A DNA stretch of 37,301 nt, from positions 1 through 37,301 of IMG/VR virus record IMGVR_UViG_3300015262_000018; one strand, written 5' to 3'. A model generated the notes under the pieces. The model saw only the letters and a list, made by a program, of their open reading frames with translations. It was not told where the DNA came from and did no database searches. The position numbers and the translations under genes are program-made. Below are positions 1 through 33,631 of this stretch, piece by piece; the stretch's first letter is position 1, and the number at the start of each line of letters is the position of its first letter. The stretch is from a virus.

Positions 1-31
1 GGTCTCATTATAAGGCGTGTAAATCCTGCGA
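1..31 (-). promoter_or_regulatory. Phage promoter copy P1 driving a gene beyond the left edge
   Basis: On the minus strand this 31-bp block has a perfect TATAAT -10 box (positions 7-12), preceded by TTTACACGCCT and followed by GAGACC. The same block, with TCGCA at its upstream end, recurs at 365-395 and 812-842 in front of two other genes. No consensus -35 is seen. It most likely starts a transcript for a gene lying left of the window. The promoter role is inferred from the -10 match and the conserved spacing. Confidence 0.65.
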
Positions 32-364: not shown

Positions 365-395
365 GGTCTCATTATAGGAGCTGTTTTTCGTGCGA
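365..395 (-). promoter_or_regulatory. Phage promoter copy P2, upstream of the 83-346 gene
   Basis: The -10 box TATAAT lies at 371-376 on the minus strand, followed by GAGACC and the leader TTACGAAAGGA that carries the ribosome-binding site. The upstream part (TCGCACG...ACAGCTCC) is more divergent than in P1 and P3 but keeps the same 31-bp length. It lies just downstream of a terminator and 19 bp upstream of a start codon, the expected place for a single-gene promoter. Confidence 0.7.
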
Positions 396-811: not shown

Positions 812-842
812 GGTCTCATTATAGGGCGTGTAATCCCTGCGA
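812..842 (-). promoter_or_regulatory. Phage promoter copy P3, upstream of the 485-793 gene
   Basis: The -10 box TATAAT is at 818-823 on the minus strand, preceded by ATTACACGCCC and followed by GAGACCTCTACGAAAGGA. It matches P1 at most positions across the block. TCGCAGG marks its upstream end where a -35 would be expected, yet no TTGACA-like hexamer is present. It could be read by host RNA polymerase with an activator or by a phage-specific factor. Confidence 0.7.
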
Positions 843-15306: not shown

Positions 15307-16605
15307 TCAGGACGCCTTGCGCTTGAACTCCCACGACTGGTTGTCGATCTCGAAGTAGTAGCCGGACGCCGGGACGGCGTAGACCGTGGTGGACGCACCG
15401 GCCGCCAGGGCCGTCTGGGCGCCCGCGGTGAGCGTGGTGCCGTTGCTGTCCTTGTAGACCACGCCGGTCTTCGACGGGATCGTGACGACACCGGTGGTGG
15501 AGTTGAAGGCGGGCTCGGTCGGCTCGACCAGGACGTTGGCCGCGGCGGTCTTCTTGATGACCAGGGCGGACTTCGGGCGGACGAGAGCACCCGACATGCG
15601 GGTCTCCAGCAGGTACTTCTGCTGGTTGTAGTCGATGTCGAAGTCGTCGAACATCGTCAGCTCGCCACCGCGGTCGGTGCCGACGTTGTAGTCGTCGAGG
15701 TTGACGATGATGCCGATGAGGTCGGGGATCTCCTTCATCGGCTCGACGAGCTGGATGTCCTTGACGCCGAGAGCGTCCGCGACCTCCTGCTTGTTGGCGT
15801 AGAACCGACGCTGGTTGCCGTCACGGGCCTTCAGGAACTTGTTGAGCTGCGGGACGGTGGTGTACAGGGTCGGCGTGCCGGTGCCCTTGTAGTACTCCAT
15901 GCCGTCCATGACGGCGTCCACGACCTCCTCGTAGTTCGAGTTGGCGTCGTCGACGTTGACGTTGACCTCGGTGACGAACAGCTCGTGGTCGTTGAGGATC
16001 GAGCGGACACCGGTACCGTCGGCGGCACCCAGCGGGTCCTTGATCTTGTCCTCGTCCGTGATGTCACGGCCGTCGCCGATGAGGATCGCACGCGCGATCT
16101 CCTCCTCGGTCATGAGCCGCATCTCGCCCTTGAGGAAGGCGACGATGTCGAAGTCCGTGATGTCGAGGATGTCGTCCCGGTCGAGCTTCTGCTTCTTGTA
16201 GATCGTGGTCGGGCCGGTGGTCCGCTTGGTGACGCCGAACCATTCCTCGATCTTGTAGTTGCCCTTGATGTAGCCCTTGGCACGGGCCTCGTCCTGCGTG
16301 AGGTCGGCCGTCCAGGTCTTGATCCGGGAGAACGGGGTGTGGCGGGTGCCGTTGAGAACGGAAGACACCCACTCGGTCCGGCGCTTCTCCAGCTCGATGA
16401 CACCGGTGGCCGCCTTGGCGTCCGGGAAGAGGATGTCGATGTCGGTGATGCCGTGCGCGAGGGCGTAGTCCTCGACGGCCTCCTTCAGGGAGCCGACCTT
16501 CTCCATCTTCTTGACGATGCCTCGGACGTCGTCCGCGGTGAGGCTGTGCTTCAGCGACCCACCCTTCTTGGCGGCGTCGCTCTGGTCGAAAACGTTGCGC
16601 GACAT
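15307..16605 (-). CDS. Major capsid protein from internal start (same frame as 15307-17340)
   Basis: The 432-residue C-terminal part of the fusion. The ATG at 16605 has a perfect AAGGAGG 7 bases upstream, better than most starts in this window, and the product begins MSRNVFDQSDAAKKGG. Its length is typical of a complete HK97-type capsid subunit with its N-terminal delta-like region. This would give an excess of capsid protein over protease, as assembly needs. Dual initiation is inferred from the SD and not proven; cleavage by the fused protease is an alternative or additional route. Confidence 0.72.
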   Translation of the reverse strand: MSRNVFDQSDAAKKGGSLKHSLTADDVRGIVKKMEKVGSLKEAVEDYALAHGITDIDILFPDAKAATGVIELEKRRTEWVSSVLNGTRHTPFSRIKTWTADLTQDEARAKGYIKGNYKIEEWFGVTKRTTGPTTIYKKQKLDRDDILDITDFDIVAFLKGEMRLMTEEEIARAILIGDGRDITDEDKIKDPLGAADGTGVRSILNDHELFVTEVNVNVDDANSNYEEVVDAVMDGMEYYKGTGTPTLYTTVPQLNKFLKARDGNQRRFYANKQEVADALGVKDIQLVEPMKEIPDLIGIIVNLDDYNVGTDRGGELTMFDDFDIDYNQQKYLLETRMSGALVRPKSALVIKKTAAANVLVEPTEPAFNSTTGVVTIPSKTGVVYKDSNGTTLTAGAQTALAAGASTTVYAVPASGYYFEIDNQSWEFKRKAS

Positions 16606-17340
16606 GCTGTCGCCTCCTTCGTTGTGGGTGAGGGCAGAGTGCTGAGCGTTCTTCGTGGCGTCTTCGAGAGCCGTACCGACGACGAAGTACATGGCGTTCT
16701 TCTGCTCTTCGGTCATGCTGTCGATGACGTCGTTGAGGGTGGCGTCGTCGGCGACTGCGTGGGAAACGGAAACGTCGGACTCGGTGCCTTCGTCGTCGGA
16801 CTCGTCGCCCTCTTCGTCGTCCAGCTCGTCATCGTCGTTGGAGGGCTCGTCCTCTTCCTCGTCGAGGGCGTGTTCGAGCTCCAGACCGGTGTGGATGACC
16901 GCCTCGTCGTCCAGCTCGGAGAGGGAGCCGTCACCGTGCTGGATCGCAACGAAGTCGATCTTCGCACCGGGATTGGCTCCCGCCAGAACGAGGCTCACCT
17001 CACGGATCTGTCCGTGGACGACGTTCTTGGCCTTCTCGACCAGCTGATTGGCGAAGATGGAGAGGGCGTTGATGTCCTTGTGCTGGACCATCTGCTTGGC
17101 CGTCTGGCCCTGCTTGGTCGAGTTGAAGAACCCGTAGGCGTAGACGCCCTCGTCGCGGTTCTCCAGGATCGCGTGGCCGAGAACGTTGTCCACGCTGTGG
17201 TGGCCGTGCTGCCAGACCAGCGGAACCTGCTGCTGGTCCATGTGCTCGAAAGCACCCCGCATGATGGTTCGGCCGTCAGTGCACTTGAGACCAGCCTTCG
17301 TGGCCCAGCCGCCGAAGTCGGCTTCGATTTCGGTTGCCAT
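15307..17340 (-). CDS. Fused HK97-type prohead protease, acidic scaffold and major capsid protein
   Basis: 677 residues, made of three parts. Residues 1-135 are a prohead protease with H45/H47/H48 in VWQHGHHSVDNVLGH and a likely catalytic Ser116 in REVSLVLAGANPGAKI. Residues 136-245 are an acidic, Asp/Glu-rich linker that could act as scaffold. Residues 246-600 are the HK97-fold capsid protein (TGPTTIYKKQKLDRDD, LMTEEEIARAILIGDGRD, RMSGALVRPKSALVI). Residues about 603-677 are an extra domain shared with the tail tube protein. The start ATG 17340 has AAGGAG. An internal AAGGAGG (16613-16619) precedes an in-frame ATG at 16605, so free capsid protein (432 residues) can also be made directly. The gene has strongly GC-biased codons. 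Confidence 0.93.
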   Translation of the reverse strand: MATEIEADFGGWATKAGLKCTDGRTIMRGAFEHMDQQQVPLVWQHGHHSVDNVLGHAILENRDEGVYAYGFFNSTKQGQTAKQMVQHKDINALSIFANQLVEKAKNVVHGQIREVSLVLAGANPGAKIDFVAIQHGDGSLSELDDEAVIHTGLELEHALDEEEDEPSNDDDELDDEEGDESDDEGTESDVSVSHAVADDATLNDVIDSMTEEQKNAMYFVVGTALEDATKNAQHSALTHNEGGDSMSRNVFDQSDAAKKGGSLKHSLTADDVRGIVKKMEKVGSLKEAVEDYALAHGITDIDILFPDAKAATGVIELEKRRTEWVSSVLNGTRHTPFSRIKTWTADLTQDEARAKGYIKGNYKIEEWFGVTKRTTGPTTIYKKQKLDRDDILDITDFDIVAFLKGEMRLMTEEEIARAILIGDGRDITDEDKIKDPLGAADGTGVRSILNDHELFVTEVNVNVDDANSNYEEVVDAVMDGMEYYKGTGTPTLYTTVPQLNKFLKARDGNQRRFYANKQEVADALGVKDIQLVEPMKEIPDLIGIIVNLDDYNVGTDRGGELTMFDDFDIDYNQQKYLLETRMSGALVRPKSALVIKKTAAANVLVEPTEPAFNSTTGVVTIPSKTGVVYKDSNGTTLTAGAQTALAAGASTTVYAVPASGYYFEIDNQSWEFKRKAS
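16605..16619 (-). promoter_or_regulatory. Internal ribosome-binding site and ATG for the capsid protein
   Basis: AAGGAGG at 16613-16619 and ATG at 16603-16605 on the minus strand, spaced 7 bases, lie inside the protease-capsid fusion frame at codons 241-246. The SD is encoded by the Glu-Gly-Gly codons just after the acidic linker. Its quality and its place exactly at the domain border argue for real use. Confidence 0.72.
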
Positions 17341-17355
17341 TTTGACTGCTCCTTC

Positions 17356-17883
17356 CTACTTCTTCGTGTTGGTCCGGGATCCGAGGTCGCCGCTCGCGTG
17401 CATCTTCTCGATCCTCGCTTTGATGGTCTTGATTCTCTCGTTCAAGGACTTGACCTCTGCCGAGAGATCACTGTTGGTTGCCGTACCGTTCTTGACGGCT
17501 TCTTCCCGGCGACGCTTCTCGTCTGCTTCGGCCTTTGCCTTCTTCTGAGCCGCAGTGAGCTTCTGAGGTTTGGCGCTGGCTTTCTGCTGAGAGGTAGTGG
17601 TCTTCTTAGCAGCAGTCTTGGTCGGCTTTACCCCACTGCGTTTCTTGGCCTGTTCGACCAGGATCTTCAGCGCTGCCTGGAGCTTTTCGAGACGACCTTT
17701 GAGCGCGTCTACTTGCTCCTGAAGTTGGGTATGCCGTTCCTTAGCGATCTCCGCTCTCGACTTGACCCGAGGCTTCGTCACTCTTACGGAACCGTGCTTA
17801 CGGCCCTTCAACTGACGATTCTTCAGGTAGTATTCACGACGCTTAGCCGCGTCATACACGTGAGAGAGGGAATCCTCACCCAT
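17356..17883 (-). CDS. Basic coiled-coil protein encoded between portal and capsid genes
   Basis: 175 residues. The N-terminus has YDAAKRREYYLKNRQLKGRK, a motif that looks like a recurrent leader in phage head-region proteins (from memory). A coiled coil at about 43-80 (QLQEQVDALKGRLEKLQAAL) is followed by a Lys/Thr/Ala-rich linker and a second coiled coil at about 140-163 (LSAEVKSLNERIKTIKARIE). The start ATG 17883 overlaps the portal stop by 8 bp. It could be an internal scaffold or a minor head protein. No catalytic motif is visible. Confidence 0.75.
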   Translation of the reverse strand: MGEDSLSHVYDAAKRREYYLKNRQLKGRKHGSVRVTKPRVKSRAEIAKERHTQLQEQVDALKGRLEKLQAALKILVEQAKKRSGVKPTKTAAKKTTTSQQKASAKPQKLTAAQKKAKAEADEKRRREEAVKNGTATNSDLSAEVKSLNERIKTIKARIEKMHASGDLGSRTNTKK

Positions 17884-19242: not shown

Positions 19243-19806
19243 CTAGCCGATGCCCATGTCTCGAAGGAGGTTCTGGGCTCTCTTCATGCCCTCGGGGTCC
19301 TTGATCTTGTTGAAAGCCTGCTTGCCTTTGTCCAGGATGATCTTGTCGATCCCGGCTTTATGGGCATACAGAGCTCCTCCGACGGCAATGGCAGTAGCCG
19401 CAGAAGCGTACTGAGAGTTTCCGTTGAGGATATGGCGAGTACCACGAATCCCCCTACCGGCGCTCTTCTTTACGTTCTTCCGCTTTCGCTCGCTGCGAGC
19501 CTTCTCGGCGTGCTTGGACATGTCCTGTTTGGCGAGGTGGTGATCGAAGGCACGCTGATATGCAGGATCCTTCTTACCTCGTGCCTCGACAGCAGCCTTG
19601 ATCAGCTTACGTCGAGTACCAGCACCTTCGCCGTAGAACATCTTGGCGCGAGCGAATTCCTTGGCATCGCTTCGGGCCTGTCGATTGGTCTTGTTGGAGA
19701 CGCCAGTCGGACCATTACGCCTCACACCCCAGTGCATTCCCTTGATGCCGTAGTGCGAGAGAACCACCTCATCGAGGGGCGGATTCACTCCGCGAATGAC
19801 CTTCAC
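19243..19806 (-). CDS. HYGIKGMHWGVRR-tagged basic head-region protein
   Basis: 187 residues from GTG 19806 (SD GGGAGGTG). Residues 16-30 read LSHYGIKGMHWGVRR, the shared tag. A compact helical domain follows (DAKEFARAKMFYGEGAGTRR, then KLIKAAVEARGKKDPAYQRA, with HHLAKQDMSKHAEKARSERK) and then a hydrophobic segment near residues 133-147 (YASAATAIAVGGALY). The protein is strongly basic. Comparable domains occur with the same tag in actinophage structural genes as far as I recall. A role inside the capsid or as an ejected protein is plausible from its place next to the portal; the function is unknown. Confidence 0.78.
   Translation of the reverse strand: MKVIRGVNPPLDEVVLSHYGIKGMHWGVRRNGPTGVSNKTNRQARSDAKEFARAKMFYGEGAGTRRKLIKAAVEARGKKDPAYQRAFDHHLAKQDMSKHAEKARSERKRKNVKKSAGRGIRGTRHILNGNSQYASAATAIAVGGALYAHKAGIDKIILDKGKQAFNKIKDPEGMKRAQNLLRDMGIG
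19717..19761 (-). other. Tag copy 1: LSHYGIKGMHWGVRR
   Basis: Encodes residues 16-30 of the 19243-19806 protein. The DNA matches the other three copies (20190-20229, 20742-20778, 23075-23111) at most positions over about 30 bp, including CCCTTGA on the plus strand. That is more than protein constraint alone would usually give across unrelated proteins. Confidence 0.8.
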
Positions 19807-19818
19807 TTTTCACCTCCC

Positions 19819-20871
19819 TCACAGGTTCGTGATCTTGTATGCCCCGCTACCTCGCTTCTGCTTGGCGTAGGACGGCCCGCTCGTGGCTCGGCGAGGGAGG
19901 CCCATGGCGTTCGCCGTGGCAGCCTGACCACGCTTGGTTTCGGCTCGGACCGCTACCTGCTGAGCAAGAACGTCCTTGTTGGCCAGAACGATCCGTGCAG
20001 CCTGAACCGAACCAGCGACGATAGCCGCTTTTCCGATTTGCCTCCACGCTTCGTTCTGCTGAGCCTTGGCGAGCTTCTGCCCCTTGTTCATACGGCGGTT
20101 GATGCGTTTGACGCCACCCTTGCCGAATGTCTTCTGATCCTCGGCCCGACGACGAGCAGAATATCTGGGGTTCGGGGAGTCATCACGACCCTTACGAACT
20201 CCCCAGTGCATTCCCTTGACTCCATGATGAATGAGTTCGGAATGCTTGGCGTCGAATTCATAGACCATGTCGGTAAGACCTCCCCAGACAGAGTCGTCCG
20301 TGGGGTCTCCTTCCTTGGTCACCTTGAATCCGAGCTTCTCATAGATGTGACGGGCGTCTGGGGAGTTGCCGGGAACCTCCAGCGTCATCCTCTTGAAGCC
20401 CTGCTGCTTACCGAAATCGCGACCGGCCTTCATGACAGCTGTGGCATAGCCTTTGCCTCGGGCAGACTTGTCGATTCCGAGCCAGTTAAGGTAGAGCTCT
20501 TCGTCGTTCTTCTTCTGAACGTTCGCGTCACCGACCTTCTTGCCTGAACCGTCCAAAATATCGAGAGAGGCCTCATTCGCATAGCCCTCTCGGTACTTCG
20601 GACTGATCCTCCCGAGGAAATTGTGTAGCTTGCTCGGCGGAACCTTCCGAAGAGTGATCGTCTCACCAGACGCAGTTTTTCGTGAAACCGAATCCGGGCC
20701 TAGAGACTTGAGAGGCTCTCTCGTGGATTTGAGGCGGTCTTTTCGAACTCCCCAATGCATCCCCTTGACGCCGTAATGCTTGACAGGATCGTCTGTCTTC
20801 GGCATGTTCGACTCGATGAGATCGAGGAGACCGCCGTACACTTCTTCGAGATCGAAATCGTCCTCGTTCAT
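19819..20871 (-). CDS. Doubly tagged GNAT acetyltransferase fusion
   Basis: 350 residues from ATG 20871 (SD AAGGAG, ATGA overlap with the terminase stop). Layout: acidic leader 1-30; tag KHYGVKGMHWGVRK at 31-44; GNAT domain about 95-205 with acetyl-CoA motif ARGKGYATAVM (137-147) and C-terminal ARHIYEKLGF (173-182); second tag HHGVKGMHWGVRKGR at 215-229; then a basic Ala/Arg-rich helical tail. An in-frame ATG at 20268 (residue 202) has GGAGG 10 bases upstream, so the second tag plus tail could be made alone. It looks like two tagged genes fused. The acetylation substrate is unknown; a host-directed target after ejection is speculation. Confidence 0.82.
   Translation of the reverse strand: MNEDDFDLEEVYGGLLDLIESNMPKTDDPVKHYGVKGMHWGVRKDRLKSTREPLKSLGPDSVSRKTASGETITLRKVPPSKLHNFLGRISPKYREGYANEASLDILDGSGKKVGDANVQKKNDEELYLNWLGIDKSARGKGYATAVMKAGRDFGKQQGFKRMTLEVPGNSPDARHIYEKLGFKVTKEGDPTDDSVWGGLTDMVYEFDAKHSELIHHGVKGMHWGVRKGRDDSPNPRYSARRRAEDQKTFGKGGVKRINRRMNKGQKLAKAQQNEAWRQIGKAAIVAGSVQAARIVLANKDVLAQQVAVRAETKRGQAATANAMGLPRRATSGPSYAKQKRGSGAYKITNL
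20190..20229 (-). other. Tag copy 2: HHGVKGMHWGVRK (second tag of the GNAT fusion)
   Basis: Encodes residues 215-227 of the GNAT fusion. It lies between the acetyltransferase domain and a basic tail, and an internal SD-ATG sits about 40 bases upstream of it. The tag is therefore both C-terminal to the enzyme and N-terminal to the tail. Confidence 0.8.
20742..20778 (-). other. Tag copy 3: KHYGVKGMHWGVRK (first tag of the GNAT fusion)
   Basis: Encodes residues 31-44 of the GNAT fusion protein, right after an acidic leader. Same core as the other copies: H-x-G-x-K-G-M-x-W-G-V-R. Confidence 0.8.
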
Positions 20872-22610
20872 TCGAACATCTCCTTGTTGGCCTTGAAAGC
20901 GATCCAAGCGTCCATCATGGCGGCGACGTTGTCGATCTTCGCGTCCTGGCGCTTCTTCAGGAGCTTGCGGTTACCGTTCGTGTCCTCCATGGTGATGGCA
21001 TTACCCATGGCGAAAGTCATGAGTGCTTGATCAAAGACAAGTAGACGTTGTTCACTCAGAATCTTGAGTTCCCCAAGCGGGACCGATTCTGTCTTGGCTC
21101 CCTGGATCACTTTCTCAATGCCAAACGGACCGTTCTCCGCCTCCCAGCGGGTTACGAACTCCTTAGCGTTGTAGGGGTCGAAACCAAGTGCACGCACGTC
21201 ATACTCTTGTTCCTGGATGAAGGCGTCCAGGTCATCAAATACCTGCATCATGTCGAGGACGGTACCCTCAAGAACATGCAGGCTGCCTTCGTTAATGAAC
21301 TCATCGTACTTCTGCCGCATGGCTCCAGGAAGCTTCATCAACGTCAATGACGTGATATAACTCCTGGTTTTTATGCCGAAGCCCTCTCGCAATGGAAAGA
21401 GGAATGTGAATGCGCAGAAGTCATCGCCCTGAGAAAGGTCGGCGCCCAGAGCACAAGGCATACGCCAGAACTCTTTTCGAGGATGAGGCAACGTCTCCTC
21501 GTAAGTGAAGAAGTACGTGTAACCCTCCATCGGTATGCCGAAACGTTTCGCCAGAATGTCATTCCGGGAAGCTGGGGCTTTCTCGGCTCGTTCAACATCG
21601 AGTTGATAGGTTTCATAAGTAACCGTCTTCCCGAGGTTAGGGTTGGCCTTTAGCCACATCGCTGGATTTGCGACCTCTTCCAGCTCGTCCAATCTGTAGT
21701 GCCAGATCGAGACGTGAGGGGCTTGGTACTCACCCTTGAGAATATCGGCAAGCTCCAGCTTGATGGTGTCGCCGCTACCGTTACGTACAGTCCCTTCTGA
21801 GCTGATCGCCACAATGAGGTAGTCGTCGAGCTTCGAGGCACCCTGTTCGATTGCACCGACCACGTCCTCTCGAATATCGCCCGACAACCATTCGTCGATT
21901 GTGGAGATCTTGGGGCGGAGCCCCTGGAGCTTGTTGACCGACATCGGTCGGACCTCTAGCAATGAACCTGTCAAAAAATTCTCGACACCCTTCTTTGTCG
22001 ATGCAAGCTTGACTCGGTTCGCTTTCGATCCTGTGGTGTTCTGCAGTGATCCTTCAGTAAGGAACTGAAAGAGTGGGCCGCGGCTCCGAGTGATGGCAGT
22101 GCGGAAAGGTGACATCACCTCATCAGCCTGCTTCATGGTTGGAGCTGTTGTGATTTGATGCGTTGTCGCTGTGTCGACATTCAAGAAATAACTCTGGATG
22201 CATTCGGCATACATCGACTTGGCAGCGCCTCGGGCGACGATGAGATATTGCTTTGTCGTTAGTCGTTTCCTGATTGTCTTAGTGACATACTTTCCGCCGT
22301 GGTTGTTCGGACTGGGTTCGTAGACGCTCCGATCGACGAAGTAGTACCACCCGAATATCTGCTCAGCCCAAATCTTGAAAGACGGCAGGAGGTGGAGATC
22401 AGCTCCGTCGGTCAGAGTAAGCTCATTCTCACAATAGAGAATAAAGCCTTCTACCGGTCCGTCATCGTAGTAGATGTTCGGGTTGGCGATGAGTGAGTCG
22501 ATCCGGTTCATCTCCAGAGAGATCTCTCGATTGACGGGGATCTCGCCGCGAATAACGGCATCACGGAATTCGCCGTAATACCTCGGCGTCGCCGTGTTCG
22601 ACAGTGTCAT
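20868..22610 (-). CDS. terL: Terminase large subunit
   Basis: 580 residues. The ATPase domain carries a variant Walker A ARGAAKS (126-132) preceded by YLIV and a Walker B STIDE (236-240). The C-terminal RNase H-like nuclease shows three acidic sites: ALGADLSQGDD, ALGFDPYNAKEF and DAKIDNVAAMMDA. It matches the Terminase_1 (HK97-type) family, which cuts concatemers and pumps DNA through the portal. The family is often linked to HNH proteins, and one is encoded at 25998. Here the small subunit candidate and HNH are separated from it by four genes. SD AAAGGAGG lies before ATG 22610. Confidence 0.95.
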   Translation of the reverse strand: MTLSNTATPRYYGEFRDAVIRGEIPVNREISLEMNRIDSLIANPNIYYDDGPVEGFILYCENELTLTDGADLHLLPSFKIWAEQIFGWYYFVDRSVYEPSPNNHGGKYVTKTIRKRLTTKQYLIVARGAAKSMYAECIQSYFLNVDTATTHQITTAPTMKQADEVMSPFRTAITRSRGPLFQFLTEGSLQNTTGSKANRVKLASTKKGVENFLTGSLLEVRPMSVNKLQGLRPKISTIDEWLSGDIREDVVGAIEQGASKLDDYLIVAISSEGTVRNGSGDTIKLELADILKGEYQAPHVSIWHYRLDELEEVANPAMWLKANPNLGKTVTYETYQLDVERAEKAPASRNDILAKRFGIPMEGYTYFFTYEETLPHPRKEFWRMPCALGADLSQGDDFCAFTFLFPLREGFGIKTRSYITSLTLMKLPGAMRQKYDEFINEGSLHVLEGTVLDMMQVFDDLDAFIQEQEYDVRALGFDPYNAKEFVTRWEAENGPFGIEKVIQGAKTESVPLGELKILSEQRLLVFDQALMTFAMGNAITMEDTNGNRKLLKKRQDAKIDNVAAMMDAWIAFKANKEMFE

Positions 22611-22625
22611 CGTCCACCCTCCTTT

Positions 22626-23168
22626 CTACCTTCCGACGTTCGTGTAGTGGTTTGACATTCTCCGAACAGCGAGACCAGCGCCTGCGGCTGCGGCTCCCGA
22701 AGCTCCTCCGGTGTAAGCGGCAGCACCGACCTTGGCGACCCCGAAAGCGGCCTTGAGTGCCTTTCCTGCGGGGCTATTCATGAACTTGTGGACTTCGTTG
22801 ACTGTCTTGCCGATGCTGAGCACCTGCTTGACCGCCGTATGTCCGGAGTCCAGTGCGTTCTTCTGCCTCGGAGTGGGCTCGGAAGTCAGTCGGTGGTACT
22901 GCTGTTCGAGGTTCAGACGAGTCACGACATTCTGGAGTTCGTGATTCGAAAGAGCGTCGGTTCCACCACGATTGATCTTGCCGAAAGCCTTCTCCACGGC
23001 CTTGGCGTCCTCTGAAGCCCGCGCCTTCGGAGTGGTCTGAGCCGTGGAAGAAGAACCCCCACCGGAATCACTCTTCCGGACACCCCAACGCATCCCCTTG
23101 ACGCCGTAGTGAGAGAGACCGGCTTCGTGCATGGCGAAGAAGGCGCGGCCTCGTTCAGTCTGAGACAT
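22626..23168 (-). CDS. Tag-domain protein from internal start (same frame as 22626-23741)
   Basis: ATG 23168 has GGAGGT (23173-23178) 5 bases upstream and would give a 180-residue protein beginning MSQTERGRAFFAMHE, followed 17 residues later by the tag. It lacks the phosphoesterase domain. The arrangement mirrors the tagged 19243-19806 gene, where the tag is near a true N-terminus, suggesting that an older separate gene was fused to the enzyme while its own start was kept. Confidence 0.5.
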   Translation of the reverse strand: MSQTERGRAFFAMHEAGLSHYGVKGMRWGVRKSDSGGGSSSTAQTTPKARASEDAKAVEKAFGKINRGGTDALSNHELQNVVTRLNLEQQYHRLTSEPTPRQKNALDSGHTAVKQVLSIGKTVNEVHKFMNSPAGKALKAAFGVAKVGAAAYTGGASGAAAAGAGLAVRRMSNHYTNVGR

Positions 23169-23741
23169 AGCTACCTCCATGGGCGACTGACGCTTGAGTT
23201 GGAACGTAGGACCTGAGTAATCTCCGTCCCACAGAGCAATCCGATCGAAGTTGACCCCGTAAATCTTGTCGAAACCGTCGGGGAATTTCTTCGCCGGGGA
23301 AGTCGGATAGCCCAGCGTCAAATGAGGAGTCCACTGGGGGAACTGATCCGCTGACAGATATGCCGAGTCAACGAGATCATTCTTCAGAAGCTGAGACCGG
23401 AAAGTCTCAATCTCCTTGGCCCACTGCTTGTCGAAGAACAGAACATCGGCATTCTGATCCCCCAGAACTCCCCGACTCTCAACGTCGAGATAGAACTGAG
23501 AAAGAAGAGATGCCGCATGCTCTACGTAGCCGACGACCAGATCCATCTGCGTCTGGTCATATCCAGGATTACCCAAATACAAGAGGGTGAGATGCGGTTC
23601 TTTCTCACTTGAGATCTTGCGAACTGGATCATCGGCCGAAGGAATGGCTGCGATGATCATCGACTTGTCAGCGTGGGAAATGCTGTTCAGCCCCACCAGT
23701 TCGTTGACGATGTGGCGGTTTCCGCCATGGGATCGACCCAC
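22626..23741 (-). CDS. Tagged 2H phosphoesterase fusion (2'-5' RNA ligase-like)
   Basis: 371 residues. The N-terminal domain (about 27-185) has both 2H motifs: PHLTLLYLG (HLT 50-52) and PHLTLGYP (HLT 140-142), spaced as in LigT/2H phosphoesterases. The tag LSHYGVKGMRWGVRK is at 209-223, then a helical region (LSNHELQNVVTRLNLEQQYH) and an Ala/Gly-rich hydrophobic stretch near 330-355. The start is uncertain: GTG 23741 has AGGGAGGGAG upstream; GTG 23696 or ATG 23660 are alternatives. An internal GGAGGT precedes in-frame ATG 23168 (residue 192). 2H enzymes include the Acb1 anti-CBASS nuclease, so a counter-defence role is possible, but it could also act on RNA ends. Confidence 0.8.
   Translation of the reverse strand: MGRSHGGNRHIVNELVGLNSISHADKSMIIAAIPSADDPVRKISSEKEPHLTLLYLGNPGYDQTQMDLVVGYVEHAASLLSQFYLDVESRGVLGDQNADVLFFDKQWAKEIETFRSQLLKNDLVDSAYLSADQFPQWTPHLTLGYPTSPAKKFPDGFDKIYGVNFDRIALWDGDYSGPTFQLKRQSPMEVAMSQTERGRAFFAMHEAGLSHYGVKGMRWGVRKSDSGGGSSSTAQTTPKARASEDAKAVEKAFGKINRGGTDALSNHELQNVVTRLNLEQQYHRLTSEPTPRQKNALDSGHTAVKQVLSIGKTVNEVHKFMNSPAGKALKAAFGVAKVGAAAYTGGASGAAAAGAGLAVRRMSNHYTNVGR
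23075..23111 (-). other. Tag copy 4: HYGVKGMRWGVRK in the 2H phosphoesterase fusion
   Basis: Encodes residues 211-223 of the fusion. The core agrees with the other copies apart from M-R-W instead of M-H-W. Confidence 0.8.
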
Positions 23742-24974: not shown

Positions 24975-25982
24975 TTATGAAGGATTTTGCCCGATGTTCT
25001 TCAGGCGCAGATAGAACGGGTAAGAAGGTGCGGCGTAAACACGATTCGATGCACCGGCAGCCGAACCAATATGCGCCAGCCCAACTCTCACTTTCCCGTC
25101 GCTTCCGATGACACCAGAACCAACGGTGAACATCGGAGGTGAGGAATGCTTGCTTACTGTGAGGATGGGGTAAAGACCAGGTCGGCCTTCAGATGGAGGG
25201 GTGGAAGATCTCGACGTCCCGTAGTAAAGAATCGCGTTCAAGGATTCATCCATAAGAACCCAGTCCATGTAGTGCGAACCGAGGTACAGAAAATCAGCGA
25301 ACACTTCTATTCGATCTCCGGGGGAAGCATCGATGGCTCCTGCGAGAGCAGTTCCTGAAGAGGTTCGAACGACCGTCCAAGAGGAGACTCCCGGAAGACC
25401 TGACAGATCGTCATCTATGACCGTTACTTCTATGGTCTTGCTCGAACCGCCAGAAACCCCAGGATCACCCTTGGGTCCTTGGATTCCCTGCTCTCCTTGG
25501 TCGCCCTTGGGTCCTTGTTCTCCGGGATCACCCTTGGGTCCTTGGATTCCCTGAAGACCTTGTTCCCCACGATCGCCTTTGGGTCCGACCACAGGAACGT
25601 AGTTCGGAGTGGCTGGGTTGATCTCGGCAATCGTGTTCAGATCCAAAGTGGATCCGCTCGAAAAACCCTTGAGAGAGAAGACGTGAACTCGTGTCTTACC
25701 CTCGATGGTTATGAAGACCTTCCACAACCAATCACGAGGATTCGACCCTGGCGCTGAATTATCGAGAAGCTCGACTCCAGGTACCCCGTCGTCTGAAATC
25801 AAACGACCCTGCGAGTCGAACCGATAACTTCCCCCGCCAGTCCATCGAACGGTGCTTCCGTTGATGACGATTTCGGGAACGGTCGGTTCGAACCGAACGC
25901 CTCCGCTAAGTCGCCTTCCCTCGACAGGACTTTTGACAGTGAGATTCACAGTCTTGGTCGGGGTGCCGGGAGGGAATGACAT
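24975..25982 (-). CDS. Collagen-like tail fibre / appendage protein
   Basis: 335 residues. The N-terminal beta domain (1-130) includes [20 protein letters not shown]. Collagen-type Gly-X-Y triplets at about 133-175 ([20 protein letters not shown] and following) form a trimeric shaft. The C-terminal domain of about 155 residues ([20 protein letters not shown] to the end) is beta-rich and may bind a ligand or the virion. Collagen-like proteins are frequent on actinophage tails. Placement beside the endolysin and HNH genes near the packaging site is unusual for a fibre. SD GAGGAGGAG precedes ATG 25982. Confidence 0.85.
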
Positions 25983-26828: not shown

Positions 26829-26863
26829 AAAAACTCCCGCCGGGGGTATTTTTAGGAGGCGGG
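26829..26863 (-). terminator. Terminator-like hairpin before the packaging operon
   Basis: CCCGCC (26836-26841) and GGCGGG (26858-26863) form a stem. In the minus-strand transcript it is followed by AGTTTTTCTGC. It would end transcripts of the RNA-polymerase-like operon before the terminase-side genes. The stem is short with a 16-base loop, so strength is uncertain. Confidence 0.5.
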
Positions 26864-27028: not shown

Positions 27029-27298
27029 TCATGATGCCGAAGAGTCGTCAGCCTTACTTGCTTCAACTGCCTCGTACTTGGCATCAGTTCCGGTAACGAC
27101 AACCTCAAGGAAGTCGTCTATACCGTCTTCGATCGCTTGGCTACGTACTGCTTCAGGCAGCTCGTGTGAGTCCTTGACCAAGCGAGCGAGGAGGGCAGTG
27201 GTGTGATACCCCAGCTGCCTGTCGTACTGGTCCCACTGTTCCCACTGTGTGAATGGGTCGAATGGGTTGTCGCTTGTTGTGAGCATGCGTTCTGCCAT
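27029..27298 (-). CDS. Small conserved protein downstream of the RNA-polymerase-like gene
   Basis: 89 residues from ATG 27298, one base after the stop of the 931-aa gene. The start LTTSDNPFDPFTQWEQWDQY then DRQLGYHTTALLARLVKDSH, followed by EAVRSQAIEDGIDDFLEVV, is a pattern I associate with small phage proteins encoded beside terminase loci. It is acidic and helical. Tight coupling to the RNA-polymerase-like protein suggests a shared pathway, for instance a partner or regulator. The function is unknown. Confidence 0.78.
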   Translation of the reverse strand: MAERMLTTSDNPFDPFTQWEQWDQYDRQLGYHTTALLARLVKDSHELPEAVRSQAIEDGIDDFLEVVVTGTDAKYEAVEASKADDSSAS

Positions 27299-27299
27299 G

Positions 27300-30095
27300 T
27301 TACTCACTCTTTCCACTCAGCATGGACACTAGAGTGGACACCGAGATTCCAAGGTAGTCAGCCACCTCAGCTTGGGTGTAACCCCTACGGACAAGGTCTG
27401 CAGCACGAGACCGCATGGCCGGATCGTGCACCACTGCCTCACGAGGCATGGCCAGTTCCTTGAGCTTCTCCGTATCGGTGTTGTCCAGGATGTCCTTCAG
27501 TTTGCTAGGACTGATGGCTCCTGCTTGGATCGCTTCCCATTCCCGAGGAGAGATCACGATCTGATCCTTCTTGGCACCAGTTCTGATTCGTGCTTCTTCG
27601 AGAGCCTTCGAACTCGCCTTCTTCTTGTCGCCTTCCTCCATGTCTGGATTGGCTTGGAGCTTCTGGCGGTAGATGGCATTCCCAATGATCTGGGCCTGCC
27701 TTTCGAGGGGGGCATTCCTGAGAGCCAGGTTCAGAGCCGCATCGAGACGCTTTACTTCTGGGGCATAGGTGTTGGCTGCAGAAGGAGAACGCCGAATAGG
27801 CTTGACCGAGAGGGTGGCCTTTCGTGCTTCGTTGGCCATGCCCTTCAATGCGTTCGAATGATCCGCATAGACGATCTCGATCGGAGTAGGGTTCTTCGAC
27901 AGGTAGGTACGAGCATCATCAACAGTCGATAGCTTCGCAACCTTCTCCATAACAGGAGTTTCCCTCGTCACAGGCTCACCGTCACGCTTCACGACTTCGG
28001 TGTCTGGACGAACCCTATAACTGGCTACCCATACACGCTTCCCAGTATCAGGGTCTACGACCTTGGTCTCAGACGTCTTTCTACCGGTAGGCACATACAC
28101 AAGCCTGCCAGTGGCGGCATCGATGGGACCGCCATCTTTTTGAGAACGAAGTTTGCGTTCAGGGATCTCAGTCGTGGCGTTCTGTCCAGAGTTAGAGATG
28201 ACGGTGGATGCACCACCATTCTTCTTCTGGTACTTCCTGACGAGGGCGGTGATGCCGTTGTCGATGGCAGACTGCTTGTAGTCGAGGTGGTGCTTCTCGG
28301 CATCGATCACAACCATGGAATGTTTGACGGCACGCTCAAGCTCAGGGAACGTAGCGCCACCGATGGTCATGTCGGTGATGAGATTGGACACCTTACCCAT
28401 CTCAATACCCTTGGTACGGGCACTCATCTTGGGTACGTCTTCAGGCAGCTTGTACATCTTGGGGTCGAAGTTCTTGAGACCCTCAAGCGGCGGGCGGGTG
28501 GCAATCTGGCGCTTGTCGTTCGGGATCACGAGAACCGTGTCGCCGTCGAAGTCTGCACCAGACAGTTGCTCAGCAACCTTGGGGTGGATGCCGATAGCAT
28601 CGCGAGCAGCATTACCGATTACGGACTTGCCTTCAGCCACCTTGTTGTTGACCCTCAGTTGAGGGATCTCGAACGTTCCGCCATGAGGGAAGCGAACTAG
28701 GACTACAATCTCACCATCCTTGAAGGTTGGCGCGTAAACCTCGTTCTCGCTGATCTTCGTCAGTGGAAGGATGACCTTGGTTGCCTGCCTCGGCATAGCA
28801 GCGGCCTTCAGATGCACAGCTGCGGCATCTGTGGACTCTGCGTATTTTTCGAGCAGGTGCTCTCTCAAAGTGGGGTTGGTGATCGACATGATCTCATCGA
28901 GCTCACGCCGTTTACGCTCTTGCACCAAATCAAGCTGTCGCTTGGCGAGGACTTGACTTTGCTTGGAAAGCATTTGAGACGAGAGGGTTCTATTCCACTC
29001 ATCCCATCGTCCTTCGGCATTGACGACATTCATCACCGAAGTAACGTGCTTTCGACCGAAGGCGTCAGCCTCTTGGATCTGATGGTCGATGGTTGCACCA
29101 AACGGATCCTTGGGGTCCTTACCCATGGGCTTCATGGCGTCGAGCTTGTTGCCGGTGTTCGACTTGTTCGTGTTGAAGATCAAGTCGACGCCGGGAGGGA
29201 AATCCTTAGGATCTCCTCGCATAGCCATGCCCTTGAGGTAATGGGTTCCGTCCACAGCAATACGAACCTGTGCATAGGTCGCGTTACCGAGAGACGTGTC
29301 CTTTACCCCAGGACGAACCTGAATGACACCGTCACGGAGGCTTCCGCCTTCTTCCGCATACCGAACCTTGACTCGCTTCGAATCGATCGAGATCGGAGGC
29401 TTGATGGTGTCGAAAGCTTGACCGCGATCCACAGGGAACATCGTGATCTGTTGGATCTTGTCACGGTTCCTCATCAGATCGCCGAACGTGGTACCGGGAG
29501 GACAGAGGACCTTCAGTCTCGTGTCCTTACCCGTACCCAGCTGTCGCACAGGAACCTTGTGGAGTTCGTAGCCTTCGTCCCGAAGAATGGAGACAGCAGT
29601 GTTGAGTTTCTCGGCACTGATGCCGCGGTGAAGCTCGACGCCCTTGCCCACATCGACGAAGCCCTTATCGGCTACCTGCTCGCGAAGCATCTCCGCAGTG
29701 GCCGTGAGAACGTCATTGCGTTCCTTGCGACCTGGCTCAAGCAGAGCTCGAACAGAGGATTCGCCAGCGAGCCCCATCTCCTTGGCGATGGCACCGTTGG
29801 ACCAACCCTTGGCCTTCAGCTTTTCAGCCTGTATGATCTTGGCTCGGGTTGCGGCGTTGTTGGCGATCGTGGTTGCGGCGCGAAGTTCAGTCGTCGTCAT
29901 TCCGAAACCTTGGGCGATCTCTTTGTCGGTGAGACCCGGTTTTCCATCCTTCTCCTTACGGAGATCCTCGACCATGCCGAGGAAGGTCATGGCGCGAGTT
30001 GTGACGTCTTCGCCGGAACCCCAGGGATAACGGCCAGATTTTCGGAGGATACCGTAGTGCACAAGGTAATCCTCTTCGTCAATGACCACGCTCAC
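27300..30095 (-). CDS. DFDGD-motif, RNA-polymerase beta'-like protein (putative), tagged at N-terminus
   Basis: 931 residues from GTG 30095 (GTGA overlap with the upstream gene). Order: N-terminal tag HYGILRKSGRYPWGSGED (13-30); two HTH segments (55-75 LTDKEIAQGFGMTTTEL; 97-120 GWSNGAIAKEMGLAGES); a large core; RFPHGGTFEIPQL (468-480); HPKVAEQLSGADFDGDTVLV (504-523) with DFDGD at 515-519; and a C-terminal HTH (GYTQAEVADYLGISVSTLVS). ADFDGD preceded by a HPxV segment is the catalytic Mg-site signature of multisubunit RNA polymerase beta' and of one-chain YonO/QDE-1-type polymerases. It is clear in sequence, but the fold is inferred. Alternatively this is a conserved phage protein with a chance motif. 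It is in one operon with two nucleases and ends next to the cos-like site. Confidence 0.6.
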   Translation of the reverse strand: MSVVIDEEDYLVHYGILRKSGRYPWGSGEDVTTRAMTFLGMVEDLRKEKDGKPGLTDKEIAQGFGMTTTELRAATTIANNAATRAKIIQAEKLKAKGWSNGAIAKEMGLAGESSVRALLEPGRKERNDVLTATAEMLREQVADKGFVDVGKGVELHRGISAEKLNTAVSILRDEGYELHKVPVRQLGTGKDTRLKVLCPPGTTFGDLMRNRDKIQQITMFPVDRGQAFDTIKPPISIDSKRVKVRYAEEGGSLRDGVIQVRPGVKDTSLGNATYAQVRIAVDGTHYLKGMAMRGDPKDFPPGVDLIFNTNKSNTGNKLDAMKPMGKDPKDPFGATIDHQIQEADAFGRKHVTSVMNVVNAEGRWDEWNRTLSSQMLSKQSQVLAKRQLDLVQERKRRELDEIMSITNPTLREHLLEKYAESTDAAAVHLKAAAMPRQATKVILPLTKISENEVYAPTFKDGEIVVLVRFPHGGTFEIPQLRVNNKVAEGKSVIGNAARDAIGIHPKVAEQLSGADFDGDTVLVIPNDKRQIATRPPLEGLKNFDPKMYKLPEDVPKMSARTKGIEMGKVSNLITDMTIGGATFPELERAVKHSMVVIDAEKHHLDYKQSAIDNGITALVRKYQKKNGGASTVISNSGQNATTEIPERKLRSQKDGGPIDAATGRLVYVPTGRKTSETKVVDPDTGKRVWVASYRVRPDTEVVKRDGEPVTRETPVMEKVAKLSTVDDARTYLSKNPTPIEIVYADHSNALKGMANEARKATLSVKPIRRSPSAANTYAPEVKRLDAALNLALRNAPLERQAQIIGNAIYRQKLQANPDMEEGDKKKASSKALEEARIRTGAKKDQIVISPREWEAIQAGAISPSKLKDILDNTDTEKLKELAMPREAVVHDPAMRSRAADLVRRGYTQAEVADYLGISVSTLVSMLSGKSE

Positions 30096-30700
30096 TCGCC
30101 ACCCTCCAATCTGTACTCGTCAATGGTTGCCTGGTGCGCCAGAATGATGCTGATGATCTCGGTCAGGACGACCCGATCGATCTCGTAGCACTGAACGTCG
30201 TCATTCTGGTAGAGACGGAGTTCGCCCTCGATTTCGTAGGGCTTGTACCCGTACTCCAGACAGAAGACGGCAGCGTAGATGAACAACTGCTCGACAGAGC
30301 AAGGAGAAACGCCAGTCTTCAGATCGAAGATCCGAAGGAACCCGAGAATATCGCCAACCGGTTCGGTGTAGACGTCGAACCCAATGGCATCCGCGGTGCC
30401 GTAGCAGTCCATCGAGAAGAAGAGAGCCCTCTCAGGCTCCATCCCATATTTGATGGCGTCATTGACATACTGACTGAGGGTAGACCCATCAGGCATGAGC
30501 TGTACGCCTTCGGAGATCGCATGGGCAGCAAGCTTGTGGAGGCTAGTGCCTCGTGCAGCGGCCTTGACGGTCTCCAGACGCTTGCGGAGCTTCTCTTTGT
30601 CGTATCGGAGCCAGTGGTAGTTCGAGGGGCTGAGAAAGGCGTGTGTGCCTTCGAGCTTGGCGTGATCGTTATACGCCTTGAAACGCTGCAACGAGCGCAC
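30092..30700 (-). CDS. PD-(D/E)XK nuclease, RecB/Cas4-like
   Basis: 202 residues from GTG 30700, overlapping the previous gene by 32 bp. The catalytic core is readable: RGTSLH (50-55, His55), GTADAIGF (Asp104), LRIFDLKTG (Asp126, Lys128) and the Q138-x-x-x-Y motif in VEQLFIYAAVFCLEYGYKP. The arrangement GTxD...DxKTG...QxxxYA is the RecB/Cas4/lambda-exonuclease-like family. In phages such enzymes process DNA ends for recombination or replication. It precedes the RNA-polymerase-like gene with a GTGA overlap. Confidence 0.82.
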   Translation of the reverse strand: MRSLQRFKAYNDHAKLEGTHAFLSPSNYHWLRYDKEKLRKRLETVKAAARGTSLHKLAAHAISEGVQLMPDGSTLSQYVNDAIKYGMEPERALFFSMDCYGTADAIGFDVYTEPVGDILGFLRIFDLKTGVSPCSVEQLFIYAAVFCLEYGYKPYEIEGELRLYQNDDVQCYEIDRVVLTEIISIILAHQATIDEYRLEGGE

Positions 30701-30962
30701 GGATTACGTCCTCTTCGATCTCGGGATAGATGACATGAGCGAAGCTCATACCGTTGGCCAGCTCCAGATAGTATTCCTGGTTCGGTTGGTATGGAGACGT
30801 CGCGCTTGCTTTGACTTCAAGCATCGCCCAGCGAGCCCTATAGAAAATCGACAGATCCGGGATACCCTGAATGTACGCGGAGTCGTTCTTCAGAATCAAG
30901 CAACCGGGGAAGCGAACCTTAAGCTTGTCAATGAGCTTCTTCTGATACTCACTTTCAAGCAT
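30669..30962 (-). CDS. VRR-NUC domain nuclease
   Basis: 97 residues, a complete minimal VRR-NUC (PD-(D/E)XK superfamily): E5 in the first helix, GIPD at 33-36, LEVK at 48-51 giving D36, E49 and K51, and a final helix. Stand-alone VRR-NUC proteins of this size in phages can cleave branched DNA (Holliday-junction-like). It is the first gene after promoter P4 and the hairpin at 30992-31008. ATG 30962 has TGGAG upstream. Two nucleases of the same superfamily in sequence suggest replication or recombination intermediates as targets. Confidence 0.87.
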   Translation of the reverse strand: MLESEYQKKLIDKLKVRFPGCLILKNDSAYIQGIPDLSIFYRARWAMLEVKASATSPYQPNQEYYLELANGMSFAHVIYPEIEEDVIRALVAAFQGV

Positions 30963-31008: not shown

Positions 31009-31030
31009 GAAGGCTTATTCTATCCCTTCT

Positions 31031-31048
31031 ATTATATGGCATGTATTA
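31031..31048 (-). promoter_or_regulatory. Promoter P4 for the nuclease / RNA-polymerase-like operon
   Basis: On the minus strand TAATACATGCCATATAAT has the -10 TATAAT at 31031-31036. The upstream ACATGCC resembles ACACGCC of P1 and P3, so a shared recognition element is likely. The operator-like TTTAGATACCC (31058-31068) lies about 25 bp upstream of the -10, in the usual position for regulating this promoter. Confidence 0.65.
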
Positions 31049-31054
31049 CCGGCG

Positions 31055-31068
31055 AGAGGGTATCTAAA
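31055..31068. repeat. Operator-like direct repeat, copy downstream of the 31070-31561 gene
   Basis: AGAGGGTATCTAAA occurs here and again at 31646-31659, exactly 14 of 14 bases. This copy starts two bases after the stop codon of the HNH-like gene, and the other lies upstream of that gene. A third, inverted GGGTATCTAAAC core is at 31685-31696. It may be an operator overlapping promoter P4. Confidence 0.7.
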
Positions 31069-31561: not shown

Positions 31562-31645
31562 GAGGTCCCCACCTTGCTCTTGAGCTTGACATGATCATGC
31601 CTTGCAAAATGTCAAATCTGAAATGAAAACTTTTTTTTTTTTGTT

Positions 31646-31659
31646 AGAGGGTATCTAAA
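31646..31659. repeat. Operator-like direct repeat, copy upstream of the 31070-31561 gene
   Basis: AGAGGGTATCTAAA, identical to 31055-31068 and forming the left arm of the 31.6-kb dyad. Minus-strand TATACT (31679-31684) is a candidate -10 for the 31070-31561 gene; a factor bound here would sit just downstream of it. Confidence 0.7.
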
Positions 31660-31684
31660 CTTTAAAGCTACGCGTAGTAGTATA

Positions 31685-31702
31685 GTTTAGATACCCTATA
31701 AT
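31685..31702 (+). promoter_or_regulatory. Candidate rightward promoter inside the dyad
   Basis: TATAAT at 31697-31702 on the plus strand abuts the operator arm GTTTAGATACCC (31685-31696). It is the only good plus-strand -10 found. No plus-strand gene is convincing downstream, so it would make an antisense or regulatory transcript across the 3' end of the helicase gene, or it may be symmetry-derived and inactive. Confidence 0.4.
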
Positions 31703-31787
31703 GCAAGAAAAAAAAGTTTTCAGAAATTTTTTTGACTTTTTGCAAGAACACCCACCCACAGGCCGTCTGACCTGCGGGTTTGCCTCC

Positions 31788-33226: not shown

Positions 33227-33631
33227 CTACTCCATGGGTTGCGCCGTATCCTTCGCGGATAGCGGCTTTACGGTTGGGTGGAGCCCTTCCGTGACCAGCG
33301 AGAGCGTGCTGTCGGCGTTCGGCTTGACTTCGACCGCGTCAGGAGCGTTCGGCTTGACTTCGACCGCGTCAGGAGCGTTCGGTGCCTCCACACGAACTAT
33401 GGCAGGCAGCTGCATGTTGAAGCTCGGAGGCTGCTCGGCCGGAGGGAGCTCCAGACGAACCACCTTGCCGAGTCGGGTGCCACCGACCCTGGTCTGCTTG
33501 TCGAGCTGAACGACGTGCGACGGTCCACTCCACCGGAACGCCGGAGTGTCGAATCGCGAGATCTCCTCGTAGGGCTTGCACTTGAGGGCGAACTCACGAG
33601 CGAGCTGGTCAAATATCGGGCTGTTGGACAT
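33227..33631 (-). CDS. Phage protein with in-frame 10-residue tandem repeat
   Basis: 134 residues. The N-terminal part (1-75) is globular-looking: SNSPIFDQLAREFALKCKPY, then SHVVQLDKQTRVGGTRLG. A repeat of PNAPDAVEVK appears twice plus part, encoded by exact 30-bp units. The C-terminus is Pro/Thr-rich and probably disordered. SD AAGGAGA precedes ATG 33631. The hairpin at 33694-33724 lies upstream. The function is unknown; it is encoded just before the helicase pair, so replication is a guess. Confidence 0.75.
   Translation of the reverse strand: MSNSPIFDQLAREFALKCKPYEEISRFDTPAFRWSGPSHVVQLDKQTRVGGTRLGKVVRLELPPAEQPPSFNMQLPAIVRVEAPNAPDAVEVKPNAPDAVEVKPNADSTLSLVTEGLHPTVKPLSAKDTAQPME
33316..33381. 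repeat. 30-bp tandem repeat inside the 33227-33631 gene
   Basis: Two exact 30-bp units (33316-33345 and 33346-33375) followed by the first bases of a third. The unit keeps the reading frame and adds 10 residues (PNAPDAVEVK). Exact identity implies recent slippage or unequal recombination. Confidence 0.9.

Follow-up and report, generated by a model that had tools for sequence, protein, structure and literature searches.

Two-barrel RNA polymerases that are part of the virion are known from the crAss-like phage phi14:2 (gp66) and from the Thermus phage P23-45 (gp96; PMC10770324). Likewise, capsid-targeting sequences have been described for T4 IPIII and P1 DarB, in which an N-terminal signal directs enzymes to the head, from where they reach the host cell (PMC9024508). 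The virion polymerase of phage N4 is T7-like and unrelated to the two-barrel enzymes. The stretch of DNA analysed here (the window), which at 37301 bases comprises an entire IMG/VR contig, encodes a two-barrel polymerase with a conserved N-terminal tag. We assign a probability of roughly 0.6 to the reading that this is a tagged virion polymerase that transcribes early genes from promoters of its own. The gene and its parts are as follows:

27300..30095, minus strand: two-barrel RNA polymerase, 931 aa, GTG start, PHROG 4291 (E=0)
30012..30074, minus strand: N-terminal tag, residues 8-28 (EDYLVHYGILRKSGRYPWGSG); residues 1-28 are predicted to be disordered
29739..29927, minus strand: N-terminal helical region with one or two helix-turn-helix (HTH)-like units, residues 57-119, weak PHROG HTH matches
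28539..28553, minus strand: catalytic DFDGD, residues 515-519, invariant in the family
27330..27419, minus strand: C-terminal HTH, residues 893-922, Pfam HTH_23, above the cut-off

The protein matches the PHROG 4291 profile, which is annotated as 'RNA-dependent RNA polymerase', over residues 5-928 of 931 (E=0, 1267 bits) and is thus a full-length member. Its DFDGD represents the DxDGD metal-binding motif that serves as membership test for two-barrel enzymes and is invariant across 84 aligned members. Since a PDB sequence search with the family profile returned only HTH or chance matches, the fold was taken from modelling. The resulting model (pLDDT 88.5) matches QDE-1 (Z 16.1 over 376 residues), plant RDR2 (up to 14.7) and gp62 of phage P74-26 (Z 13.7), and fulfils the test for a two-barrel core fold (QDE-1/YonO-like), which is hereby established. 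All of the best matches are two-barrel enzymes; for a T7-like (N4-type) fold, a missing match is by itself no exclusion. The two-barrel fold, the invariant DFDGD and the HTH matches at both termini make a sigma-free, self-guided polymerase plausible by inference, with residues 57-119 as the putative promoter-binding part. We describe the protein as a single-chain, two-barrel, DNA-dependent RNA polymerase, whose RNA synthesis activity is inferred without enzyme data.

Members of this family occur in 250 phage records with Streptomyces, Arthrobacter, Gordonia, Rhodococcus, Curtobacterium, Microbacterium and Lactococcus as hosts or from human gut and oral samples, as well as in many firmicute prophages. 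Their names conflict: a homologue is called 'tail fiber protein' in L143 (KF594186), and others are labelled as HTH protein, RNA-dependent RNA polymerase or structural protein. Many actinophage records list the PHROG 4291 member as 'helix-turn-helix DNA-binding protein'.

The initial annotation had singled out residues 13-30 of the polymerase, and this observation held: they read HYGILRKSGRYPWGSGED, and positions 30003-30095 (minus strand) correspond to codons 1-31. In the alignment of 84 members, which are less than 75% identical and were mostly fetched by the tag, the columns HYG..SGRY..GSG are invariant, and no other invariant column precedes residue 255. H13, G15, S20, G21, R22, G26 and G28 are nearly invariant although the region is predicted to be disordered. 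Further members were retrieved with the catalytic core only; among their 149 ORFs with a 5' end, 144 carry the tag (133 strictly and 11 loosely). Variants include HVG…PPGRGSGRYPHGSG. In total, 251 phage records match the tag and 250-252 match the protein. HYG…SGRYPWGSG is thus a near-invariant N-terminal tag of this phage two-barrel polymerase family. HYG alone was rejected as a meaningful signal, since three residues occur by chance; in a six-frame translation of the window it appears five times, namely in the polymerase, in three tagged proteins and in one short out-of-frame reading that ends in a stop. The literature searched names neither DUF7211, KGMKWG-type tags nor RYPWGSG.

The polymerase shares the first half of its tag with DUF7211 (PF23847), a tag found on other proteins of the same genomes. 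In the window, such L-x-H tags are located at:

23064..23117, minus strand: DUF7211 tag (LSHYGVKGMRWGVRK) of a 2'-5' RNA ligase/phosphoesterase-like protein upstream of the terminase
20734..20799, minus strand: DUF7211 tag 1 (VKHYGVKGMHWGVRK) of a GNAT acetyltransferase-like protein after the terminase
20185..20241, minus strand: DUF7211 tag 2 (LIHHGVKGMHWGVRK) of the same GNAT acetyltransferase-like protein
19711..19764, minus strand: DUF7211 tag (LSHYGIKGMHWGVRR) with which a third tagged protein begins
17800..17874, minus strand: third tag type (DSLSHVYDAAKRREYYLKNRQLKGR) of a coiled-coil-like protein between portal and capsid

A profile comparison (hhalign) of the polymerase and DUF7211 tags gave a probability of 95 and P 3.6e-8 over only 13 columns, [DE].xLxHYGxx. 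Both tags are acidic at -5/-4 and carry L at -2 of the histidine (93% and 88%, respectively). In ten genomes, the polymerase N-terminus is likewise matched by the DUF7211 profile, at positions 4-14 only and with at most 18 bits, which is below the curated cut-off of 27 bits that includes KGMxWG. The polymerase tag hence fails this profile criterion for DUF7211. Homology of the WG halves was rejected because SGRYPWGSG and KGMxWG, which take the same place in the two tags, do not align and differ in spacing. Of the likeness to HYGxKGMxWG proposed in the initial annotation, the first half ([DE]-x-L-x-H-Y-G) is therefore shown to be related, whereas the WG half is not supported.

DUF7211 tags were found in 32 of 37 polymerase genomes, and DUF7211-like tags in 46 of 49 prophage loci. 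As read in detail in 33 genomes, the tagged genes nearly all flank the terminase gene, before the portal gene and the fused protease-capsid gene. A few genomes have other L-x-H tags, among them the third type, L-x-H…YYDPxKAxEYYxxxxxLKGR, which is conserved between portal and capsid in 14 genomes (in the window at 17800-17874). The SGRY tag itself occurs on terminase-flanking proteins of gut phage MT835616 and one close relative; a search for further such swaps yielded only this one, closely related contig, and the swap is confined to one subgroup. Genus by genus, the DUF7211 tag and the polymerase occur in identical or nearly identical numbers of records (Arthrobacter 95, Gordonia 55, Streptomyces 54, Curtobacterium 7, Microbacterium 4). 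As separate observations, the lysine-rich coiled-coil-like protein at 17356-17883 begins with the third L-x-H tag type, and the tagged proteins at 19819-20907 and 22626-23741 have enzyme domains (GNAT acetyltransferase and 2'-5' RNA ligase/phosphoesterase, respectively). In other phages, proteins labelled as protease, acetyltransferase, RNA ligase or membrane protein stand under the DUF7211 tag. Possibly, these enzyme-domain proteins resemble a set of injected effectors.

A similar motif recurs within the head genes, where positions 15307-17340 encode a protease-capsid fusion (Peptidase_S78 and Phage_capsid) with an acidic scaffold domain:

16543..16953, minus strand: scaffold-like (delta) domain within the protease-capsid fusion, in which L/I/V-x-H-[SAG] motifs recur

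In 36 sequences, 162 of 190 scaffold-domain histidines are preceded by L/I/V/M/F at -2, with S/A/G then following, compared with a shuffled expectation of 21% (sd 3%, maximum 31% in 2000 shuffles). Within the window's own scaffold domain, L/I/V-x-H-[SAG]-[DE] motifs are dense and are likely processing or binding sites. Because tags and scaffold share L-x-H, it is inferred that the same head machinery handles both, perhaps with cleavage after L-x-H. The T4 protease, which cleaves after (L/I)-x-E, offers a parallel.

Evidence for a virion location comes from Lactococcus phage 1706 (GenBank EU081845). Its orf75, a homologue with ~40% identity to the polymerase, was deposited as 'structural protein'. 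H-x-G…W-G tags are otherwise present in 1706 only in orf7, which bears two of them and is also labelled structural. The 1706 study reportedly used mass spectrometry, the presumed basis of the labels. In ReqiPoco6, gp106 carries a structural label by similarity. The notion that every virion protein needs a tag was rejected, as 1706 orf62 and orf71 are labelled structural without one. No proteomics for the Arthrobacter and Microbacterium relatives were found in the phage papers searched. Direct support for a virion location is limited to the deposited 1706 labels, and we consider the presence of the polymerase in the virion quite likely. The initial annotation had suggested that, if both tags are virion-targeting signals, the polymerase could be packaged, injected and used to transcribe early genes. 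All of the evidence obtained favours this, albeit indirectly, by inference from sequence and deposited labels; separate lines of sequence evidence back each link from tag to packaging to early transcription.

The polymerase gene belongs to an operon near the genome end:

30669..30962, minus strand: VRR-Nuc-type nuclease, first gene of the polymerase operon
30092..30700, minus strand: Cas4/RecB-like exonuclease upstream of the polymerase, with start/stop overlap between the two
27029..27316, minus strand: small gene after the polymerase (PHROG 4303), last before the genome end
26856..26857, no strand, from alignment: position that aligns with the physical genome ends of ClubPenguin (cos region)

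Both ends of Streptomyces phage ClubPenguin align across position ~26857 of the window, and one small gene lies between there and the polymerase. In ReqiPoco6, cos is located 279 bp past the gene that follows the polymerase. These data confirm the earlier proposal that the polymerase gene adjoins a putative genome end. The window runs through this physical end, and the polymerase gene is the last but one on the packaged chromosome, an order also seen in ReqiPoco6/Pepy6, 1706, Rickmore and others. Elsewhere in the window, an AT-rich near-palindrome of 94 nt (31626-31719) between an HNH-type gene and a helicase gene may be an origin or a regulatory hairpin. A perfect 30-bp tandem duplication (33315-33374) in a small ORF repeats PDAVEVKPNA, and a predicted protein with collagen-like GPKGDxGEQG repeats (24975-25982) is encoded just before the amidase endolysin.

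Three repeats in the window pointed to a motif that polymerase phages of other genera also have, a candidate cognate promoter (TCGCR-N6-ACA-N5-TATAATGAGACC). The copies in the window are:

1..31, minus strand: candidate early promoter copy 1 (TCGCAGGATTTACACGCCTTATAATGAGACC)
365..395, minus strand: candidate early promoter copy 2 (TCGCACGAAAAACAGCTCCTATAATGAGACC)
812..842, minus strand: candidate early promoter copy 3 (TCGCAGGGATTACACGCCCTATAATGAGACC), followed by GAAAGGA and ATG
31024..31055, minus strand: candidate promoter of the nuclease-exonuclease-polymerase operon (TCGCCGGTAATACATGCCATATAATAGAAGGG), degenerate, ~980 nt upstream of the polymerase

While simple k-mer and EM motif searches recovered the promoter in only some genomes, this was resolved by fixed-spacing anchoring. 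TCGCR-N6-ACA-N5-TATAAT-GAGACC with fixed spacing then yielded 119 sites, distributed over 21 early regions and without exception on the gene strand, compared with ~0.05 per region in shuffles and 6 sites in structural regions (582 kb). Carriers include phages of Streptomyces, Gordonia, Rhodococcus, Arthrobacter, Curtobacterium, Microbacterium and Bifidobacterium as well as the contigs G013, G014 and G018; at least six actinobacterial host genera are represented, together with gut and unassigned contigs. The strict pattern has no site in P118, G009 and G002 and a single one in 1706; early genes of 1706 and P118 are repeatedly preceded by a related TTTTACATAnnCTATAGT/AT motif. A BLAST search of 50,697 phage records with a 45-nt consensus returned 184 matches, all in organism groups known to carry the polymerase. 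Per genus, the matches equal the polymerase counts (Gordonia 55, Streptomyces 54, Rhodococcus 4, Microbacterium 4), with 64 of 95 in Arthrobacter. These counts, like those of the tag, agree in totals only, without a record-by-record comparison. One match, Siphovirus 29632, has no annotated polymerase, and its record also lacks annotated head genes. The promoter motif and its co-occurrence with the polymerase are thus established. The literature searched contained the promoter string only as chance strings in unrelated papers.

Of 108 loci, 56 also have a variant of the promoter 820-1300 nt before the polymerase tag, against a single one on the opposite strand and 3% in shuffles; in 53, a CG box stands at the fixed offset. 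In the core-retrieved sets, 74 of 137 loci have such an upstream variant and none has it on the opposite strand. TATAAT varies (TTTTAT, TTAGAT, CTCTAAT) while the TCGCR and ACA boxes stay, and the spacing leaves no room for a -35 box 17 nt upstream. For both reasons, a phage enzyme rather than a host sigma factor is thought to read the promoter, which remains an inference. Many promoter sites in relatives come immediately after T-rich, terminator-like stretches, which suggests transcription units of one gene each.

From these data, the following mechanism can be proposed. The polymerase would be loaded into the phage head during assembly and enter the cell with the DNA. The disordered tag, [DE][DE]-x-L-x-H-Y-G…S-G-R-Y-P-W-G-S-G, would act as a capsid-targeting signal, one of a set of L-x-H tags that are also present on terminase-flanking proteins and resemble the L-x-H motifs of the scaffold domain. 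The head machinery would treat tags and scaffold alike and might cut after L-x-H. In the absence of fusion data, we only lean towards the tag being a packaging signal; packaging, cleavage and injection are all inferred. Once in the cell, the HTH domains would replace sigma and bind TCGCR-N6-ACA-N5-TATAAT-GARA before the early genes and the polymerase's own operon, with transcripts expected to start just after TATAATGA. That the polymerase reads TCGCR-ACA-TATAAT promoters is likely, yet both recognition and early use are inferred without transcription or enzyme data.

Other explanations are conceivable. The polymerase might not be a virion protein at all; instead, it could be made early from a host-read promoter and then serve as a middle-class polymerase like P23-45 gp64, while the tag has another role. 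Such a scenario would fit the copy of the promoter class that precedes the polymerase operon in roughly half of the loci; in addition, one of the best fold matches is P74-26 gp62, a protein close to the non-virion gp64. It is rendered unlikely by the deposition of the 1706 homologue as structural and by a tag common to the polymerase and head-region proteins. Alternatively, the tag may serve the polymerase itself, as a structural or DNA-binding element with no part in packaging, and may resemble DUF7211 only through convergence on a short motif. In favour of this, RxSGRYPWGSG is nearly confined to polymerases and shows no alignment with KGMxWG. This option appears improbable in view of the significant [DE]xLxHYG profile match, the ten polymerase N-termini picked by the DUF7211 profile, the full SGRY tag on non-polymerase terminase-flanking proteins of two related gut phages and the predicted disorder of the region.

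Equally unlikely, in our view, is that the host RNA polymerase reads the early promoters and that the phage enzyme does something else, e.g. primer or small-RNA synthesis from RNA templates. TATAAT is the bacterial -10 consensus, the best fold match is the RNAi polymerase QDE-1, and the 'RNA-dependent RNA polymerase' label suggests such a role. However, the TCGCR and ACA boxes with their rigid non-sigma spacing are conserved from actinobacterial phages to gut contigs while TATAAT varies. Moreover, QDE-1 structures include DNA templates too, and DNA-dependent phage relatives share the fold.

The reading as a tagged virion polymerase is itself subject to caveats. Tags, polymerase and promoter belong to one phage lineage, so that their co-occurrence partly reflects common descent. 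As the polymerase operon has the same promoter class, the enzyme may also be made during infection, and TATAAT is a good host -10 element as well. A bolder version, in which the lineage loads enzyme cargo including a sigma-free polymerase via a shared L-x-H code read by the capsid's protease-scaffold, and in which the delivered enzyme opens infection from a three-box promoter conserved among phages of distant hosts and so makes early transcription largely host-independent, is tentative, and we would not quite bet on it.

If the virion reading is true, ~250 sequenced phages carry a virion RNA polymerase under HTH, RNA-dependent RNA polymerase, structural, tail-fiber or hypothetical labels, and siphophages of actinobacteria and firmicutes would transcribe their early genes without depending on host sigma. 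The tag would constitute a portable packaging signal for enzyme delivery into Gram-positive bacteria, and for the many DUF7211 proteins a role as injected effectors would be predicted. With the promoter motif, the idea becomes testable in laboratory phages.

Among known systems, the N4 virion polymerase, invoked in the initial annotation as an unrelated analogue, is rightly so described and shares the idea only, i.e. an injected polymerase for early genes; the two-barrel virion polymerases of crAss-like phages and P23-45 are closer. With phi14:2 gp66 and P23-45 gp96, the present enzyme has in common the single-chain double-psi-barrel fold with DFDGD; a virion location is indicated by the deposited label of the 1706 homologue, and early use is inferred. 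In contrast to these, it is not fused to a tape-measure protein; rather, it is a separate, tagged HTH protein encoded at the right genome end, and it has a candidate promoter class. In the records examined, PHROG 4291, of which it is a full-length member, is a family without assigned role, tag or promoter. Its tag is unrelated in sequence to the signals of T4 IPIII and P1 DarB, and a single L-x-H core recurs here, both on many cargo proteins and in the scaffold domain, with targeting being inferred. Hence, while virion two-barrel RNA polymerases and capsid-targeting peptides are already known, a tagged, stand-alone, HTH-bearing RNA polymerase with an inferred virion role and a candidate promoter common to phages of distant hosts is new.
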